Of a stretch of 62,362 nt of DNA, positions 12,505 through 50,769 are shown piece by piece. The notes beneath the pieces are model-generated. The model made no database searches. It saw only the letters and a program-made list of their open reading frames with translations, and was not told the DNA's origin. Each line of letters opens with the position of its first letter. Position 1 is the first letter of the stretch. The translations under genes were made by a program, and so were the position numbers. The stretch spans positions 1-62,362 of the forward strand of contig JAHHHZ010000002.1 of the NCBI GenBank assembly GCA_019359095.1, in the 5' to 3' direction. The DNA comes from Pleurocapsa minor HA4230-MV1. Its GTDB lineage: Bacteria > Cyanobacteriota > Cyanobacteriia > Cyanobacteriales > Xenococcaceae.

Positions 12505-12540
12505 CTAAAAGCTATATGCGTAGCGGTATCCTTTAGGACG
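12505..12540. repeat. Copy of the CCTTTAGG palindromic repeat family
   Basis: The string ATGCGTAGCGGTATCCTTTA followed by GGACG matches, in reverse complement, the left arm of the element inside the NRPS gene at 49207-49310 (CCTAAAGG, then GTACCGCTTCGCGT). It is preceded by degenerate GCTAAAAG-type heptamers at about 12478-12514. Confidence 0.65.
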
Positions 12541-15895: not shown

Positions 15896-17332
15896 ATGAC
15901 CCCAAAAACTATATATCTAAGCAAATGTTTATTCAATCAATCAGCCTATTTCTGGCAGCGAAAAACTTTTTTAGTGCCTGTCTTAATTGCCATAGCGGGG
16001 ATTATTGTCAGCTTGCCTGATAGTTTACCAATTCAGGGACGTTTAGCCTTATTTATTTTTTTAGTGGCGACCATTTTTTGGTCAATTACCAGCATCAATG
16101 CAGCTTACGTTGCTGTGGGTTCAGCAATCATGCTGGTCTTAACAGGGGCAATATCCCAGGAACAGTTTTTTGCTTCCATGGGTTCAGATGTAGTTTGGTT
16201 AATGATTGGGGCGTTTATTTTGGGCTATGCGGTTAAAGAGACTGGTTTAGCAGCCAGGTTAACCCACATGGTAGTAGCCAAAGCTAATAATGTTGCTAAT
16301 CTTTTTTGGTTATTAACAACAGTCCTGATTCCTCTTTCTTTCCTAATTCCCTCAACTTCTGGTCGGGCGGCTGTAACCTATCCTGTCTTTCGTAGTATTA
16401 CGGGGGCGATCGCCGACAAGCAAATTAGACGCACTCTCTGTTTATTGATGCCTACCATTATTTTGGTTTCTACCATTGTTTCTTTAACAGGTGCAGGTTC
16501 TCATTTAGTTGCTAACGATCTTTTAGAACAGATTGCCCAACAGGAAATTTCTTTTGGTCAGTGGGTGCTTTATGGTTTGCCTTTTGGGGTAGTTGCTAGT
16601 TATATCTCTTGCTGGGTTATTTCGCGGATGTTTTTGAATCAAAAACAGTTACAGCAGCCATTGAGCCTACCACAATTACCAGCGCAATCTTTGTCGCTCA
16701 AAGAACGCCAAACCCTTGGCATTTCGTTACTGATGCTGATTTTTTGGTTAACAGAAGCTTGGCATGGACTAGAAATTGCCACCGTCACCATGATGGGAGC
16801 AGTATTACTGACAATGCCTAAATTTGGGGTAATTCAATGGAAGAACAGTGTTAAAGCTGTTGCTTGGAATTTGATTATGTTCGTCGCAGCTACTTTAGTT
16901 TTGGGACGTTCTCTAATTCAGTCTGGTGCATCTAAGTGGATTTTCGATCACATTTTTCACTGGAGTGACGTTCGTAGTACCCAATCTAGTTTGATTATTT
17001 TTGTCTTGCTGGCAATTATTTCTCTCACCTCTCATATTTATATGACTTCTCACACAGCTAGGGCAGCAGCTTTAGTGCCTCCTTTGCTTTATCTTGCTAG
17101 CAGTTTAAACCTTAATCCAGTAGCAGTGATGTTTCTCAGTACTTTAGGGATGGATTATTGTTTAACTTTTCCTGTCAGTTCTAAAGCTTTGCTGGTTTAT
17201 CAAGAGTTAGATGAAGGCGGTTTTAAACCCAAAGATTTGCTTCGTCTCAGTTCGGTGCTGATTGTAATTCATCTCGTCCTAATGGTCTTGTTTTATTACA
17301 CCTGGTGGCGATGGGTGGGGTTGTCGCTTTGA
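15896..17332 (+). CDS. SLC13/DASS-type anion permease
   Basis: 478 residues from ATG 15896, which has GAGGAA just upstream; a longer frame from TTG at 15803 would add a non-hydrophobic leader read through repeat-like DNA. About 11-12 membrane spans. Two half-repeats are visible, with PSTSGRAAVTYP and MTSHTARAAALVPPL, matching the two substrate/cation loops of the divalent anion:Na+ symporter family (sulfate, dicarboxylates). The substrate cannot be assigned. A glycerate kinase follows after a 139-base gap made almost wholly of heptamers, so organic acid uptake is a possible link. The stop codon's last base is the first base of the repeat array. Confidence 0.85.
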   Translation: MTPKTIYLSKCLFNQSAYFWQRKTFLVPVLIAIAGIIVSLPDSLPIQGRLALFIFLVATIFWSITSINAAYVAVGSAIMLVLTGAISQEQFFASMGSDVVWLMIGAFILGYAVKETGLAARLTHMVVAKANNVANLFWLLTTVLIPLSFLIPSTSGRAAVTYPVFRSITGAIADKQIRRTLCLLMPTIILVSTIVSLTGAGSHLVANDLLEQIAQQEISFGQWVLYGLPFGVVASYISCWVISRMFLNQKQLQQPLSLPQLPAQSLSLKERQTLGISLLMLIFWLTEAWHGLEIATVTMMGAVLLTMPKFGVIQWKNSVKAVAWNLIMFVAATLVLGRSLIQSGASKWIFDHIFHWSDVRSTQSSLIIFVLLAIISLTSHIYMTSHTARAAALVPPLLYLASSLNLNPVAVMFLSTLGMDYCLTFPVSSKALLVYQELDEGGFKPKDLLRLSSVLIVIHLVLMVLFYYTWWRWVGLSL

Positions 17333-17464
17333 AAAGTCAAAAGTCAAAAGTTAAAAGTTAAAAGTTAAAAGTTAAAAGTTAAAAGTTAAAAGTTAAAAGT
17401 TAAAAGTTAAAAGTTAAAAGTTAAAAGTTAAAAGTTAAAAGTTAAAAGTTAAAAGTTAAAAGTT
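17332..17464. repeat. 19-unit heptamer array (AAAAGTC x2, AAAAGTT x17)
   Basis: A perfect 7-bp tandem repeat fills the space between the permease stop and the glycerate kinase start, leaving only seven bases (AATAAAA) before the ATG at 17472. The two first units differ in the last base. There is no ordinary ribosome binding site. Short tandemly repeated heptanucleotides are a known class in filamentous and some unicellular cyanobacteria; this is a long, homogeneous example. Confidence 0.97.
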
Positions 17465-17471
17465 AATAAAA

Positions 17472-18647
17472 ATGACACTTAATATTTTAATTGCTCCCTC
17501 TGGATTTAAAGAAAGTATCGATGCCGAACAAGTTGCCGATTGTATTGCCAAAGGCATTGTCAGAGCTTTACCTGATGTCCGAATCCTCAAAGTACCTTTG
17601 GTAGATGGTGGAGAAGGCTTTACCAAAACCTTAGTTGCAGCTACGGGAGGGACGATACATCATCTGGAAGTAACTGGCCCTGTTGGCGAAAAAGTCACCG
17701 CTCATTTTGGCTTTCTGGGCAAAACTAAAGTTAAAACTGCGGTTTTAGAAATGGCAGCAGCAGCAGGCTTACGTCTTGTGCCTTCAGATTTGCGCAATCC
17801 TTTAATAACGACTACTTACGGTGTTGGCGAATTAATTAAAGCTGCTTTAGATGCTGGTGCGGAGAGAATTTTAGTTGGTTGTGGCGACTCTGGTACTAAT
17901 GATGGTGGTGCAGGAATGGCACAAGCCTTGGGAGTAAAATTATTAGATGAACATGGCAAAGAATTAGGTTTAGGTTGCAGTGAATTAATTAAACTCAGAC
18001 AAATTGACATTGACCAAAGAGATCCACGTCTCGATCGAGTACAAATTGATGTCGCTTGCAATTGGCATAATGTCTTGTGCGGATTTCAGGGAGTAGCAAG
18101 AGTCTTTGGCCCACAAAAAGGTGCATCTCCCGCAATTGTCGAACAGATGGAGTTAGCATTGGAACATTACGCTAGCGCGATCGCAACTCATTTAAATATC
18201 GATGTCAGAGAAATGTCTGGGAGTGGTGCATCTGGTGCTTTAGGAACTGGTTTACATGCTCTCATTGGAGCTAGATTATACCCCCGTTACGAAATTGTCA
18301 TGCAATATTTAGAGTTGGATAAATTAATCCCAGAAGTCGATTTAGTGATTACTGCTGAAGGGTGTATCGATTATCAAACACCACGGGGTAAAATTCCTGC
18401 CGAAGTTGCCAAGCGAGCTAAACTTTATGGACTGCCTGTAATTGCTTTAGTAGGGACAATTGGCGAAGGTGCAGATCTGAATTTACACCACGGCATCGAT
18501 CACTATACAAGTATTTTGAGCCATCCTTGTCAACTTAATGAAGCGATCGCTCAGACGGCAACTCTCCTAACCAATACTGCCGAACAAATTGCCCGTTTGC
18601 TTTTGGTAGGAAAACAAATTCGTCGTGCGACTTTCGCTGGATGGTAA
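17472..18647 (+). CDS. glxK: Glycerate 2-kinase, GlxK/GarK family
   Basis: 391 residues; phosphorylates D-glycerate with ATP, giving 2-phosphoglycerate in the characterised enterobacterial members. The N-terminus ILIAPSGFKESIDAEQVADC, PLVDGGEGFT, LVGCGDSGTNDGGAGMAQAL and ITAEGCIDYQTPRGKIP are the family hallmarks. It is not the GLYK type used in cyanobacterial and plant photorespiration, so the cell may have both. The start follows the heptamer array. It converges on trpE with ten bases between the stops. Confidence 0.92.
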   Translation: MTLNILIAPSGFKESIDAEQVADCIAKGIVRALPDVRILKVPLVDGGEGFTKTLVAATGGTIHHLEVTGPVGEKVTAHFGFLGKTKVKTAVLEMAAAAGLRLVPSDLRNPLITTTYGVGELIKAALDAGAERILVGCGDSGTNDGGAGMAQALGVKLLDEHGKELGLGCSELIKLRQIDIDQRDPRLDRVQIDVACNWHNVLCGFQGVARVFGPQKGASPAIVEQMELALEHYASAIATHLNIDVREMSGSGASGALGTGLHALIGARLYPRYEIVMQYLELDKLIPEVDLVITAEGCIDYQTPRGKIPAEVAKRAKLYGLPVIALVGTIGEGADLNLHHGIDHYTSILSHPCQLNEAIAQTATLLTNTAEQIARLLLVGKQIRRATFAGW

Positions 18648-20234: not shown

Positions 20235-20310
20235 GCGCGAAATTCCGTTGCCCTAAAGGACTAGCTTCGCGTCGCGCGGGTCTCCCGCGTTGAGGAAATT
20301 TCGTAAGACG
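20235..20310. repeat. Palindromic repeat element with CCCTAAAGGACTAGC core
   Basis: Imperfect outer arms GCGAAATTCCG (20236 on) and GGAAATTTCGT (ending near 20305) enclose CCCTAAAGGACTAGCTTCGC and a strong hairpin CGCGGG-TCT-CCCGCG (20275-20289). The core matches part of the NRPS-borne element (CCTAAAGGATTAGC at about 49231). Confidence 0.75.
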
Positions 20311-46878: not shown

Positions 46879-49800
46879 ATGCCAGAACAAAATAGACAAG
46901 GAACAATATGTTGGCTGGATTTTAACCTCTGTGCCACCGAATTAGATTCTGGTTTTGCCCCCAATCATCCGAGGGTAGCAAAGTTGGCGATCGACGGTAA
47001 CTTTATGCTTGCTTCAATTGAAGTATTAGACGAACTGTCACAATCCCTTCCTGGAACAATAACAGCTATAGAGCCAAACTTAGTGCGCGTTTCTGGCATA
47101 AGTTACGAGATTGCTCTGCGCCAAATACAAACTTTAGAGGGTCAACCTTTGTCAATTCCCGATCTAAGCAAAAGATTTGGACTACAGGTTGGTTATCAGT
47201 TTCAGGGGATCGATCCTCAGATAGTTCAGCAGGTTGAGGCGTTTAATAGTTCGATTGCCAAGCATGAAGCATTTTGGGTCGAGAAACTAGAAAATTTACA
47301 GCCCATCACTATTCCTTATGCAGATCGAACAGTATCCCACTTTAAAAAACAATTTAAAAGTGTCACAATTCCAATCCACGACGAAATTAGATCTTTTTTG
47401 AAAGGTCGAAACTCAAACTGGAATCTAGGCAATTTTCTCTGTGCTGCTTTTATCGGTTATCTGGCTCGTATTGGCGGAACAAATAGTTTTGATCTTGGAT
47501 TTAGAGATATCAAATTAGCACAAGAACTAAATAATAGCGCAGGTTTTTTTGCAGCCTACGTACCTTGCCATTTAGACATAAATCTTGAGCAAAGTTTTGA
47601 GGAGTTTTTTGCAGCCATAAGAGTACAGATAGAGCTAACCAAACAGCACAAAACTTATGCACGGGATGTTGTGGTGAGAGATCCTACGCTGCGGAAAATA
47701 CCATTAGCTAGCCCAGATATATTTCCCGTAGCGATCGAATGGGTAGAAAAAATAGCCGAACAACAAGGTAACCCTGGCAATGAGCTTACTTTGATCATTT
47801 CAGCGGATGAGACGGAATGCCTTTGGCTTTATAACACTGAAGCTTTTGATGCTAATAGCATTACTAGGATGTTGGAGCAATTTACGATTTTTCTCCAAGG
47901 TATTGCTACGAACTCTACTCAATCTCTGGCTCATCTACCACTGTTATCTGAGTGGGAACGCCAGACAATCCTGGTGGAGTGGAACGATACGGCAATTGAC
48001 TATCCCCTCGACCAATGTATTCATCAGTTATTTGAAGATCGGGTAGAGAAAACACCAGATGCTTTGGCAGTAGTGTTTGAAGAACAGCAACTAACCTACC
48101 AAGAGTTAAATGAGCGAGCCAATCAATTTGCTGCCTATTTACAGGAGTTGGGAGTAAAGCCAGAAACCCTAGTGGGTATTTTTGTCGAACGCTCTCTAGA
48201 AATGATTATTGCTAATTTAGCCATTCTTAAGGCTGGTGGTGCATATCTGCCCTTAGATTCAACTTATCCTCAAGAACGCTTAGATTATATTATTCAAGAT
48301 GCCCAAATCTCTCTGATACTGACCCAGAATCATTTACAAGCCAAAATTGCATCTTGTGTCACCGTAAGTCAAAACAACATACAAATAATTTCCCTCAATA
48401 GTAATCTTCCATCTAGCCCGACATCCCTACAGTCCCATACATCTAATCCCAGCAATCTAGCTTACGTAATCTACACCTCTGGTTCTACAGGAAAACCCAA
48501 AGGAGTGGAGATCCCTCATCGAGCTTTAGTGAATTTTGCTCAAGCAGCAGTGCAAGAATATGAAATTACTCAAAGCGATCGCATTTTACAATTCGCCTCG
48601 ATTAGTTTTGATGCCTCAATTGAAGAAATCTATCCCTGTCTGATCGCGGGAGGGACATTAGTTTTACGTAGTGAAGAAATGAGCTATTCGCCCTCATTGT
48701 TACTAGAAAAATCTGGTGACTATGGCATTACGATTTTAGATTTACCCACCGCTTTTTGGCATTTACTCACGGCGGAATTAGCCAACAACCTGCAATTACA
48801 ATTACCCCCATCAATTCGTTTAGTAATTATTGGTGGCGAAGCAGTCAATCCCAAGCAAGTAACAATTTGGAATCGATTAGTCGGAACTTGTCAGCTAATT
48901 AATACTTATGGCCCTACAGAAACCACTGTTGTGGCTACCAGTTATAAAATTCCTCATCAGCTCGATCACCTATCTACCATCCCAATTGGTAGACCATTGC
49001 CCAATCTCCAGACTTATATTTTAGATCAAAACTTACACCCAGTTCCTGTGGGAGTTCCAGGAGAAATCTATATAGGTGGTGCAGGTTTAGCCCGAGGTTA
49101 TTTAAATCGTCCTGAGTTAACCGCTGAAAAATTTGTGGACAATCCCTTTGCTCAGGATCAAAAGTCAAAATTATATAAAACAGGAGATTTAGCCCGTTAT
49201 CTAGCCACCCTAAAGGGTACCGCTTCGCGTCCTAAAGGATTAGCTCCTAACGTCGCGTCACACGAAGTTAGTGCTAAAGCATACCGCTCCGCATATCCTT
49301 TAGGGCATAATGCTAAAATTGAATATCTGGGACGAATCGATAATCAGGTAAAAATTCGTGGCTTTCGCATTGAGCTGGGTGAAATTAAAGCTACGATCAC
49401 ACTACATCAAAACATACACCAAACAGTCGTCATAGCTAAAGAAGACAACTTAGGAGACAAGCGCCTAGTCGCCTACATTGTTCCCCAGCCAGAACAAACA
49501 GTTACCACCGAAGAAATACGCGGATTCCTTAAGGAAAAACTACCGCACTACATGATACCAAGTACATTCATTTTTATAGAGGCTTTACCCTTAACTACTA
49601 ATGGCAAAATAGACCATCGCGCTCTACCCGCACCTGAGCAAGCTAGATCTGAACCAAAAGAAACCTTTGTCGCTCCCAGGAATCAATTGGAACTGCAACT
49701 GGCAACAATTTGGCAAAACGTTTTGGGCATCCAGAATATTGGCATCCATGATAATTTCTTCGATCTTGGTGGACAATCTCTGCTGGCAGTACGATTATTT

Positions 49801-50769
49801 GCTGAAATTCATAAATCATTCAATCAGAAATTAACTTTATCCACTGTATTGCAAGCATCTACTATTGAGCAATTAGCAAAAGTTATAAGTCAAAAAGAAT
49901 ACTTGCCCGATTCATCGTATCTTGTACCAATTCAACCCCATGGGTCTAAAATCCCGTTTTTTTGTATTCATGGCGCGCAAGGTGAAGTTCTCTTTTTAAA
50001 AAGTTTAGCTAACCATCTCAATCGGGATCAGCCTTTTTATGCCATAAGATCACCAGGACAAAATGGAGAAACTGCCCCTCTAACCTGCATTGAAGAGATG
50101 GCAAAGCTTTATATTAAGGAAATAAAAACCATACAACCGCAGGGCCCTTATTTACTAGGTGGTTATTCTTTTGGAGGACTTGTGGCTTTTGAAATGGCTC
50201 GACAGTTTAAAGAACAAAGTCAAGAGGTTTCATTATTGGCATTATTAGACTGTTATGCTCCAGAAAGCCTCAAATATTTACCGTTACATAATAGATTGTT
50301 GCAACATTTTCGCAATTTTCTATCGATTGGGCCTGATTATCTTTTCAACAAATTCAAGACATTACGCACCAGAATCATGTATCGTCTGCTTAAGGATGAA
50401 GCTATGAGAAATAATTATTTTTATCACTTAACTAGTACTAAATATTTTTATAATTTAATTAATGAGTTTCCTAACTATACTGTTGAAGATTTAAAATTGT
50501 GGGAAAATCTTTATAAAGCTAATTTACAAGCAAGTTCAAATTATATCCCCTCAGTTTATGAGGGAAAAATTACTCTTTTTAGAGTCAAAACCGATCCTAC
50601 TAAGAATTTTTATCAGCCAGTAGCAAAATGTGGATGGAGCAAACTATCTAATCAAGAAATAGAAGTATATGATTGCACTGGTGATCACTATACTTTTATA
50701 GAAGAACCTCATGTCCAAAGTTTAGCTAGACAATTACAGTCTTGCCTTGTTTTAGCTACAGAATTATAA
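46879..50769 (+). CDS. Single-module nonribosomal peptide synthetase (half-C, A, PCP, TE)
   Basis: 1296 residues. Residues about 110-360 match only the C-terminal lobe of a condensation domain; the HHxxxDG motif is absent. The adenylation domain (about 380-920) has LTYQELNERAN, YTSGSTGKPKG (532-542), NTYGPTE and YKTGD, and closes with A10 NGKIDHRAL. Specificity positions by alignment with GrsA are D578, A579, E582, D621, I650, G652, T676, V684, V685, K910. The carrier serine is Ser967 (LGGQSLL) and the thioesterase nucleophile Ser1097 (GGYSFGG). Between A7 and A8 there is an extra segment (about 776-813) encoded by a repeat element. With a TE but no complete C domain it may make a single activated amino acid product or work with another acceptor. 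Small gene 51184 follows. Confidence 0.9.
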   Translation: MPEQNRQGTICWLDFNLCATELDSGFAPNHPRVAKLAIDGNFMLASIEVLDELSQSLPGTITAIEPNLVRVSGISYEIALRQIQTLEGQPLSIPDLSKRFGLQVGYQFQGIDPQIVQQVEAFNSSIAKHEAFWVEKLENLQPITIPYADRTVSHFKKQFKSVTIPIHDEIRSFLKGRNSNWNLGNFLCAAFIGYLARIGGTNSFDLGFRDIKLAQELNNSAGFFAAYVPCHLDINLEQSFEEFFAAIRVQIELTKQHKTYARDVVVRDPTLRKIPLASPDIFPVAIEWVEKIAEQQGNPGNELTLIISADETECLWLYNTEAFDANSITRMLEQFTIFLQGIATNSTQSLAHLPLLSEWERQTILVEWNDTAIDYPLDQCIHQLFEDRVEKTPDALAVVFEEQQLTYQELNERANQFAAYLQELGVKPETLVGIFVERSLEMIIANLAILKAGGAYLPLDSTYPQERLDYIIQDAQISLILTQNHLQAKIASCVTVSQNNIQIISLNSNLPSSPTSLQSHTSNPSNLAYVIYTSGSTGKPKGVEIPHRALVNFAQAAVQEYEITQSDRILQFASISFDASIEEIYPCLIAGGTLVLRSEEMSYSPSLLLEKSGDYGITILDLPTAFWHLLTAELANNLQLQLPPSIRLVIIGGEAVNPKQVTIWNRLVGTCQLINTYGPTETTVVATSYKIPHQLDHLSTIPIGRPLPNLQTYILDQNLHPVPVGVPGEIYIGGAGLARGYLNRPELTAEKFVDNPFAQDQKSKLYKTGDLARYLATLKGTASRPKGLAPNVASHEVSAKAYRSAYPLGHNAKIEYLGRIDNQVKIRGFRIELGEIKATITLHQNIHQTVVIAKEDNLGDKRLVAYIVPQPEQTVTTEEIRGFLKEKLPHYMIPSTFIFIEALPLTTNGKIDHRALPAPEQARSEPKETFVAPRNQLELQLATIWQNVLGIQNIGIHDNFFDLGGQSLLAVRLFAEIHKSFNQKLTLSTVLQASTIEQLAKVISQKEYLPDSSYLVPIQPHGSKIPFFCIHGAQGEVLFLKSLANHLNRDQPFYAIRSPGQNGETAPLTCIEEMAKLYIKEIKTIQPQGPYLLGGYSFGGLVAFEMARQFKEQSQEVSLLALLDCYAPESLKYLPLHNRLLQHFRNFLSIGPDYLFNKFKTLRTRIMYRLLKDEAMRNNYFYHLTSTKYFYNLINEFPNYTVEDLKLWENLYKANLQASSNYIPSVYEGKITLFRVKTDPTKNFYQPVAKCGWSKLSNQEIEVYDCTGDHYTFIEEPHVQSLARQLQSCLVLATEL
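49207..49310. repeat. Palindromic repeat element inserted inside the NRPS coding sequence
   Basis: Starts CCCTAAAGGGTACCGCTTCG and ends CATATCCTTTAGGGC; the arms CCCTAAAGG and CCTTTAGGG are exact complements. Inside are CCTAAAGGATTAGC and CTAAC/GTTAG. It adds about 34 residues to the adenylation domain and keeps the frame open. Related copies lie at 12505-12540 and 20235-20310. Confidence 0.85.

Follow-up and report, generated by a model that had tools for sequence, protein, structure and literature searches.

Selfish repeats lodged within genes are known, best of all from Rickettsia. MITEs span 70-300 bp and carry the terminal inverted repeats of a parent transposon. Small dispersed repeats (SDRs) have units of about 21-27 nt, occur in many dispersed copies, and are found inside tandem heptamers and inside themselves; a shared secondary structure is true of some SDR families only. 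They were reportedly described from Nostoc by Elhai et al. in 2008. This SDR work is cited in three later papers (PMC4390886, PMC3116915, PMC3733652). According to the last of these, Rickettsia palindromic elements (RPEs) are palindrome-rich and lie in frame in genes whose function is probably kept, while GTAG/CGTC-tagged REPs are short dispersed repeats, some of them intragenic, that occur in cyanobacteria too (PMC3733652). A literature search lying mostly outside the subscription literature found no paper on inserts of the kind described here in NRPS genes, nor on recurrent entry at one codon followed by nested growth.

The window, the 62,362-nt stretch of Pleurocapsa minor HA4230-MV1 DNA analysed here, belongs to a genome of 36 contigs and 5,636,891 bases. 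It contains an NRPS gene of 1296 codons (46879..50769, + strand), in which Pfam detects the C-terminal part of a condensation domain followed by adenylation (A), carrier (T), and thioesterase domains. The gene opens (46879-47973) with just this C-terminal part (positions 190-456 of the 456-position profile); a homologue (G058) nevertheless aligns from residue 11, over residues 11-776 and at 57% identity. The A domain occupies 48031..49608 (+ strand), with AMP-binding at residues 385-742 and AMP-binding_C at residues 836-910, and the solved structures that match it best are NRPS A domains (4d4i, 4d56, 4d4g, and then PheA, 1amu). The closest named relative found is a protein in Pleurocapsa sp. 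CCALA 161, whose A domain is 82% identical.

Between motifs A7 and A8, the gene carries an in-frame insert of 102 bp, or 34 codons (49207..49308, + strand), that is missing from the orthologues L004 and L008. The block can equally be placed at 49208-49309, within the Asn/Asp codon. The spacer from YKTGDL to GRIDNQVKIR is 46 residues long in the window NRPS and 12 residues in 29 of the 35 matches of a first loop scan, in which the window gene was counted both under L001 and as the window. A motif-pattern scan of the + strand alone of each of 77 named loci gave the standard 12-residue spacer in 142 of 142 matched A domains. A preliminary description of this DNA had put about 38 residues here against about four in homologues; the extra block is there, but its size is 34 residues, and the spacers compare as 46 to 12. 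The same description read the block as a repeat taken up as coding sequence in the turn before A8, and this agrees with the open frame and with its absence from all 142 of these domains. The same peptide was thus met in no homologue from unrelated species among them, and the homologues within the family that have it also have the same DNA element.

The arms and core reported earlier are all present. The arms CCCTAAAGG and CCTTTAGGG lie at 49208-49216 and 49297-49305, and the core CCTAAAGGATTAGC is exact at 49231-49244. Both window occurrences of the motif TACCGCTYCGC are within the insert (49207..49308), against an expected mean of 0.00. The insert had been described as a single palindromic element, which does not hold; as read from its sequence, it is a nested composite of 24 + 54 + 24 bp whose building block is a 24-bp unit. 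By comparison with the +24 bp loops of L018, L032, L140, L144, and L145, the stretch 49208..49228 (+ strand) holds the left 21 nt of the first such element (CCCTAAAGGGTACCGCTTCGC), and its last three nucleotides (ATA) are at 49307-49309. Nested within it, the second insertion is a 54-bp composite (49229..49306, + strand) that holds the core and is itself interrupted by the third; the same block sits in the same place in L031, a locus on contig C36 of the same genome at about 526.3 kb. The third and innermost insertion is the 24-bp GCTAAAGCATACCGCTCCGCATAT (49273..49296, + strand), which the L031 insert lacks and which has related copies elsewhere in the genome.

The repeat origin of this sequence goes beyond chance. 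Within the window, matches to the core at up to three mismatches number 18, against 7.63 expected and 16 in the highest of 100 shuffles, so the window alone is weak evidence for such an origin. The whole-genome count is strong evidence: 94 exact copies of the core, all retrieved and read, against 0 for the reversed control. As the preliminary description had supposed, the repeat is therefore found elsewhere in the genome, and six of the 94 copies are interior to genes. A DNA search with the insert as query listed at least 55 matches in the same genome, query included, with 40 of 294 candidates scored. The two intergenic copies named earlier exist, but neither is exact: at 12515..12538 on the minus strand lies TCCTAAAGGATACCGCTACGCATA, which differs from the 24-bp element by one base, and the core with one mismatch (CCTAAAGGACTAGC), followed by TTCGCGTC, lies at 20252..20265 on the plus strand.

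The recurrent unit, YCCTAAAGGATACCGCTTCGCATA, is 24 bp long. Tandem heptamers of the GGGATGA, GGAACAA, and GGTAGTA types host it and run on unbroken on either side of the 24 extra bases; these are clean 24-bp insertions, and target duplication is not evident. The same genome holds 48 copies with CTAAAGGATACCGCTYCGCAT in 43 distinct contexts, six copies sharing one context. Of the 27 genomes of the family, 17 contain the exact 24-mer CCTAAAGGATACCGCTTCGCATAA, and none of 361 further genomes sampled from the same order does. In all 38 own-genome contexts with T as the next host base the element starts with T, and in the single context with C as the first element base the next host base is A, a hint at the joining chemistry. 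The window itself contains a tandem AAAAGTT array (17332-17480), and heptamer arrays of this sort host the 24-bp element elsewhere.

These elements look more like cyanobacterial SDRs than RPEs. The comparison with SDRs, taken from their description, rests on the length class (24 nt), the dispersed copies in 43 contexts of one genome, the occurrence within GGGATGA-, GGAACAA-, and GGTAGTA-type heptamers, the nesting, and the restriction to one clade. In contrast to SDRs as described, the present element sits in frame within conserved domains and repeatedly at one position of the NRPS A domain. The parallel with Rickettsia drawn in the preliminary description holds for the in-frame insertion into protein-coding genes, a feature that the 24-bp element shares with RPEs, but the overall likeness is closer to SDRs. 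Compared with RPEs by description, the element differs in its lineage, its modular and nested 24-bp unit, its short target preference, and its one shared site. The unit, at just 24 bp, does not fit a MITE. Unlike GTAG/CGTC-tagged REPs, which have a stem of at least 6 bp with a terminal GTAG or CGTC, the three 24-bp units that were folded have no predicted stem of that length, and their folding (z between -1.56 and 0.95) is not clearly better than that of shuffles, which lends no clear support to a hairpin in the 24-bp unit.

Nor was a RAYT association like that of the GTAG/CGTC-tagged REPs seen. A Y1_Tnp search of the same genome gave eight matches and identified no mobilising enzyme for the 24-bp element: neither the core nor the 24-mer is present at any of the eight loci, searched to about 1.5 kb on each side, and a general link to these transposases was rejected. 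IS200-like genes are present, and two of the loci (L135 and L136) appear RAYT-like by eye. Short motifs do occur around them, with a single GCTAAAGC at each of L131, L132, and L136, one CCTAAAGG at L132, and one TTCGCGTC at L135. Several more lie about 65-1300 bp downstream of the IS200-like gene of L134 (40936), and a copy of the 24-mer on contig C3 (39363) lies about 1.6 kb upstream of it. A link between the 24-bp element and this gene is weakly possible.

The window insert is one of a ladder. Related inserts occur in nine A domains from six of the 27 genomes, representing three genera of one family, and measure +24 bp (five domains), +33, +48, +78, and +102 bp. Three are in the same genome (window, +102 bp; C36 near 526.3 kb, +78 bp; near 549.7 kb, +24 bp); the others are in G004, G007, and G018 (+24 bp each), G019 (+24 and +48 bp), and G012 (+33 bp). 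In all nine, the insert starts between the first and second bases of the codon that stands at the Asp/Asn position of a Pro-Asp-Gly turn, and eight end in GCATA ahead of the second base of that codon, the G012 insert ending otherwise. Five of the loops came from the spacer-length scan and three from a census of the 24-mer, neither of which fixes the position, and L139 alone rests on a position-specific pattern search. Every insert is a multiple of three and open (9/9); the spacer-length scan demanded an open frame and the position-pattern search did not. Removal of the inserts in silico restores a D/N-G turn in six of the nine domains (PDGN, PDGN, PDGS, ADGS, PNGN, PNGA) and leaves none in L145 (PDRN), the window (Ala-Asn-Ala-Lys, ANAK), or G012 (PRGN). 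The steps of the ladder are related: the window insert equals the 78-bp insert of C36 plus the inner 24-bp unit, and the C36 insert in turn is a 24-bp unit split by 54 bp. The +48 bp insert of G019 is nested differently. A pattern for a T-first variant of the element at the same loop offset gave nine matches, none of them in an A-domain loop, and the reverse orientation is absent at this offset from all 27 family genomes.

One element is thus seen at 24-, 48-, 78-, and 102-bp stages at one position of an enzyme fold, with empty-site orthologues at hand. This makes several matters testable: the passage from repeat to protein, the choice of site by DNA target or by protein tolerance, and the way in which so small an element moves. 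The position is also one where NRPS adenylation domains tolerate insertions in nature.

The 24-bp element prefers G^NNG targets, which GAYGG codons match. In the 43 distinct own-genome contexts, G stands at -1 in 35 and at +3 in 31; this set was used because the +1 base from one set of heptamer hosts is biased by the search pattern. The Pro-Asp-Gly turn is coded CCN GAY GGN, and its G^AYG fits the preference. Across the 36-nt A7-A8 spacers of 31 insert-free A domains, GANG falls at the Asp codon in 23 and elsewhere on the coding strand three times, and occurs eight times on the reverse strand. Among 115 A domains from named loci, 106 have GANG on the Asp codon and 48 have another at offset 4. 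Some loops run counter to the preference: A rather than G precedes the element in four of the nine, including all three of the own genome, and L145 has no G at +3. Moreover, a whole A domain holds about 41 GANG sites on both strands, 29 of which would stay open after insertion (mean of 26 domains), so the target preference is not enough to single out this one, and tolerance of the turn must add to it. A census of CCTAAAGGATACCGCTTCGCATAA, in which the site was not preselected, saw 86 of 92 places and gave 80 distinct contexts. Seven of these were recognised in NRPS A-domain loops, four at this same nucleotide (L160, L170, L182, L229) and three in the A6-A7 loop (L176, L222, L223), and one further context is in a related AMP-ligase domain (L161).

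Repeats are also found in the A6-A7 loop of L031, at about 6.0-6.3 kb. Together with L176, L222, and L223, this loop takes a AAGGGGGG-type repeat as well as the 24-bp element in either orientation.

We consider it fairly probable that the insert consists of cyanobacterial SDRs and that such a repeat repeatedly entered a tolerant turn, kept the frame, and grew by nesting. The 24-bp element would insert without evident target duplication and with a preference for G^NNG. The CCN GAY GGN turn would offer it G^AYG, and a tight surface turn should accept eight extra residues; since the target fits the preference and the turn would tolerate the residues, the same turn could be entered repeatedly in different A domains. 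Some inserts would then have been lengthened by the nesting of further repeats, in the window by 24, then 54, then 24 bp. Translation of the insert would give a loop that is probably unstructured and of next to no consequence for catalysis. On a bolder version of this account, for which the chances seem to us close to balanced, an eight-codon repeat whose preferred target coincides with the Asp-Gly codons has independently and repeatedly entered the same Asp-Gly codon in one family and has ratcheted the loop longer by nesting, making it a recurrent landing pad inside an enzyme.

The alternative that survives best is that one insertion, made once or a few times, spread from module to module among NRPS genes through short gene conversion or recombination of modules. 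NRPS genes do recombine, and a 78-nt stretch of the window insert is matched at 94% by the C36 insert despite only 43% protein identity between the window NRPS and its C36 match; no other match listed covers this stretch whole (40 of 294 candidates scored). Because they have this composite in common, these two inserts are not independent. The bases beside the window insert bear on the same pair: the six nucleotides to its left (CTAGCC) are identical to those of the insert-free orthologue L004, but the six to its right (AATGCT) share two of six with L004 (GACGGA) and four of six with the C36 module (AATGGC), as though copying had extended beyond the insert. Together, the right-hand bases and the shared 78-bp composite suggest that sequence was copied to some extent between the window gene and C36 or that both drew on a recent common source, and judged by sequence the 78-bp core of the window insert was probably copied from the C36 module or derives from such a source.

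For the nine inserts taken together, the flanks and the tree argue against copying as the general explanation. The A7 and A8 flanks of the window match those of the insert-free L004 (G005) and L008 (G002) at 98.6% over 69 nt, a comparison that omits the codons adjoining the insert. Across the 42 nt to the right of the insert, insert-bearing pairs are no more alike (0.687) than mixed (0.688) or insert-free pairs (0.696). Identity in insert-bearing pairs is slightly higher over the 27 nt to the left (0.745, against 0.727 mixed and 0.708 insert-free), and over the 45 nt further right it is 0.705, against 0.679 mixed and 0.648 insert-free. No local similarity peak that would mark a gene-conversion tract lies near the inserts among the A-domain pairs compared, and copying would require tracts that take in the insert and no more than a few bases beside it. 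A tree was built from 36 of 40 A domains, without L058, L223, and two partial sequences; the insert-bearing domains are scattered on it, with six changes, at least four of them forced by well-supported branches, and a single change in 0% of 200 bootstrap trees. Each change could be a gain or a loss, and insert-bearing domains group mildly on the tree (20 of 500 shuffles are as low), a point that counts for copying. We regard copying as a rather unlikely source of the whole set, and infer that most of the insertions outside the window and C36 pair were independent.

In an AlphaFold model of the A domain (mean pLDDT 86.9, from a 42-row alignment), strands 389-399 and 439-444 flank the insert segment, whose successive ten-residue pLDDT means are 53, 38, 48, and 68 and which includes a short helix of low confidence. 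The 34 residues would accordingly form a mostly disordered, presumably surface-exposed loop on an intact A-domain fold, and the earlier suggestion of a loop agrees with this prediction of a low-confidence segment between confident strands. Domestication of the loop, with selection acting on its extra residues, perhaps because they serve as a linker or docking surface, would accord with nine A domains hit at one position and open in all nine. It is improbable, however, given the low confidence of the predicted loop, the spacers of 46, 38, 28, 23, and 20 residues that coexist among insert-bearing domains, and the presence of the same element peptides in unrelated proteins (P450, GAF, intein, PKS, transposase).

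Equally improbable is that the insert has damaged the enzyme and the gene is decaying, which the partial condensation match (190-456 of 456) might suggest. All 1296 codons are free of stops, the carrier and thioesterase domains are detected, and the alignment of the G058 homologue over residues 11-776 at 57% identity argues that the unusual N-terminus is no local ruin. Damage had been raised as a possibility in the preliminary description and finds no support in the predicted fold, whose strands on either side of the insert are modelled with confidence. That the 34 codons are cut out of the message or passed over by the ribosome, for which translational bypassing elements are a known precedent, is very unlikely: the 102-nt block does fold as RNA better than shuffles (z -3.48), and the 78- and 102-nt composites fold well, but the single 24-bp units do not clearly do so, and all nine inserts are divisible by three and stop-free, a partly circular point since the spacer-length scan required an open frame.

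The entry of a short repeat into coding sequence extends beyond NRPS genes. Ten of the 43 own-genome contexts of the 24-mer were judged to be inside genes and in frame, with genes called from stop-free frames and Pfam, so that "in frame" is partly built into the counts, and orthologue comparison made for the NRPS only. These genes encode a P450, a glucosamine-isomerase-like protein, a 23S rRNA IVP protein, a GAF protein, a DnaE intein, two DUF5906 proteins, a PKS, a DUF4351 protein, and an IS110-type transposase. The six intragenic core copies are in two NRPS genes and in genes for PriA, an HD-domain protein, a P450, and a glycosyltransferase. Because ORFs of at least 150 aa give the window a coding fraction of about 82% and few copies are intragenic, the repeats strongly avoid genes. 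The proportions of 10/43 for the 24-mer and 6/94 for the core differ (Fisher P 0.008), with different cut-offs and the P450 in both counts, and the difference would fit a better tolerance of the 24-bp unit, which is divisible by three.

Several of these copies deserve mention in their own right. On contig C17 at about 17 kb (L204), a 24-bp copy lies in frame in an intein of the DNA polymerase III alpha subunit, with LAGLIDADG_3 and intein-splicing matches. The IS110-type transposase ORF (L344:787-1299) apparently contains two in-frame element peptides, PKGYRFAY and PKGYRYAY. In the PriA helicase gene (L056:1452-4097, minus strand), an in-frame repeat-derived stretch follows the DEAD domain. 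Finally, in the P450 (L073) and glucosamine-isomerase-like (L128) genes the 24-bp unit is embedded in a larger composite repeat that is similar in the two.
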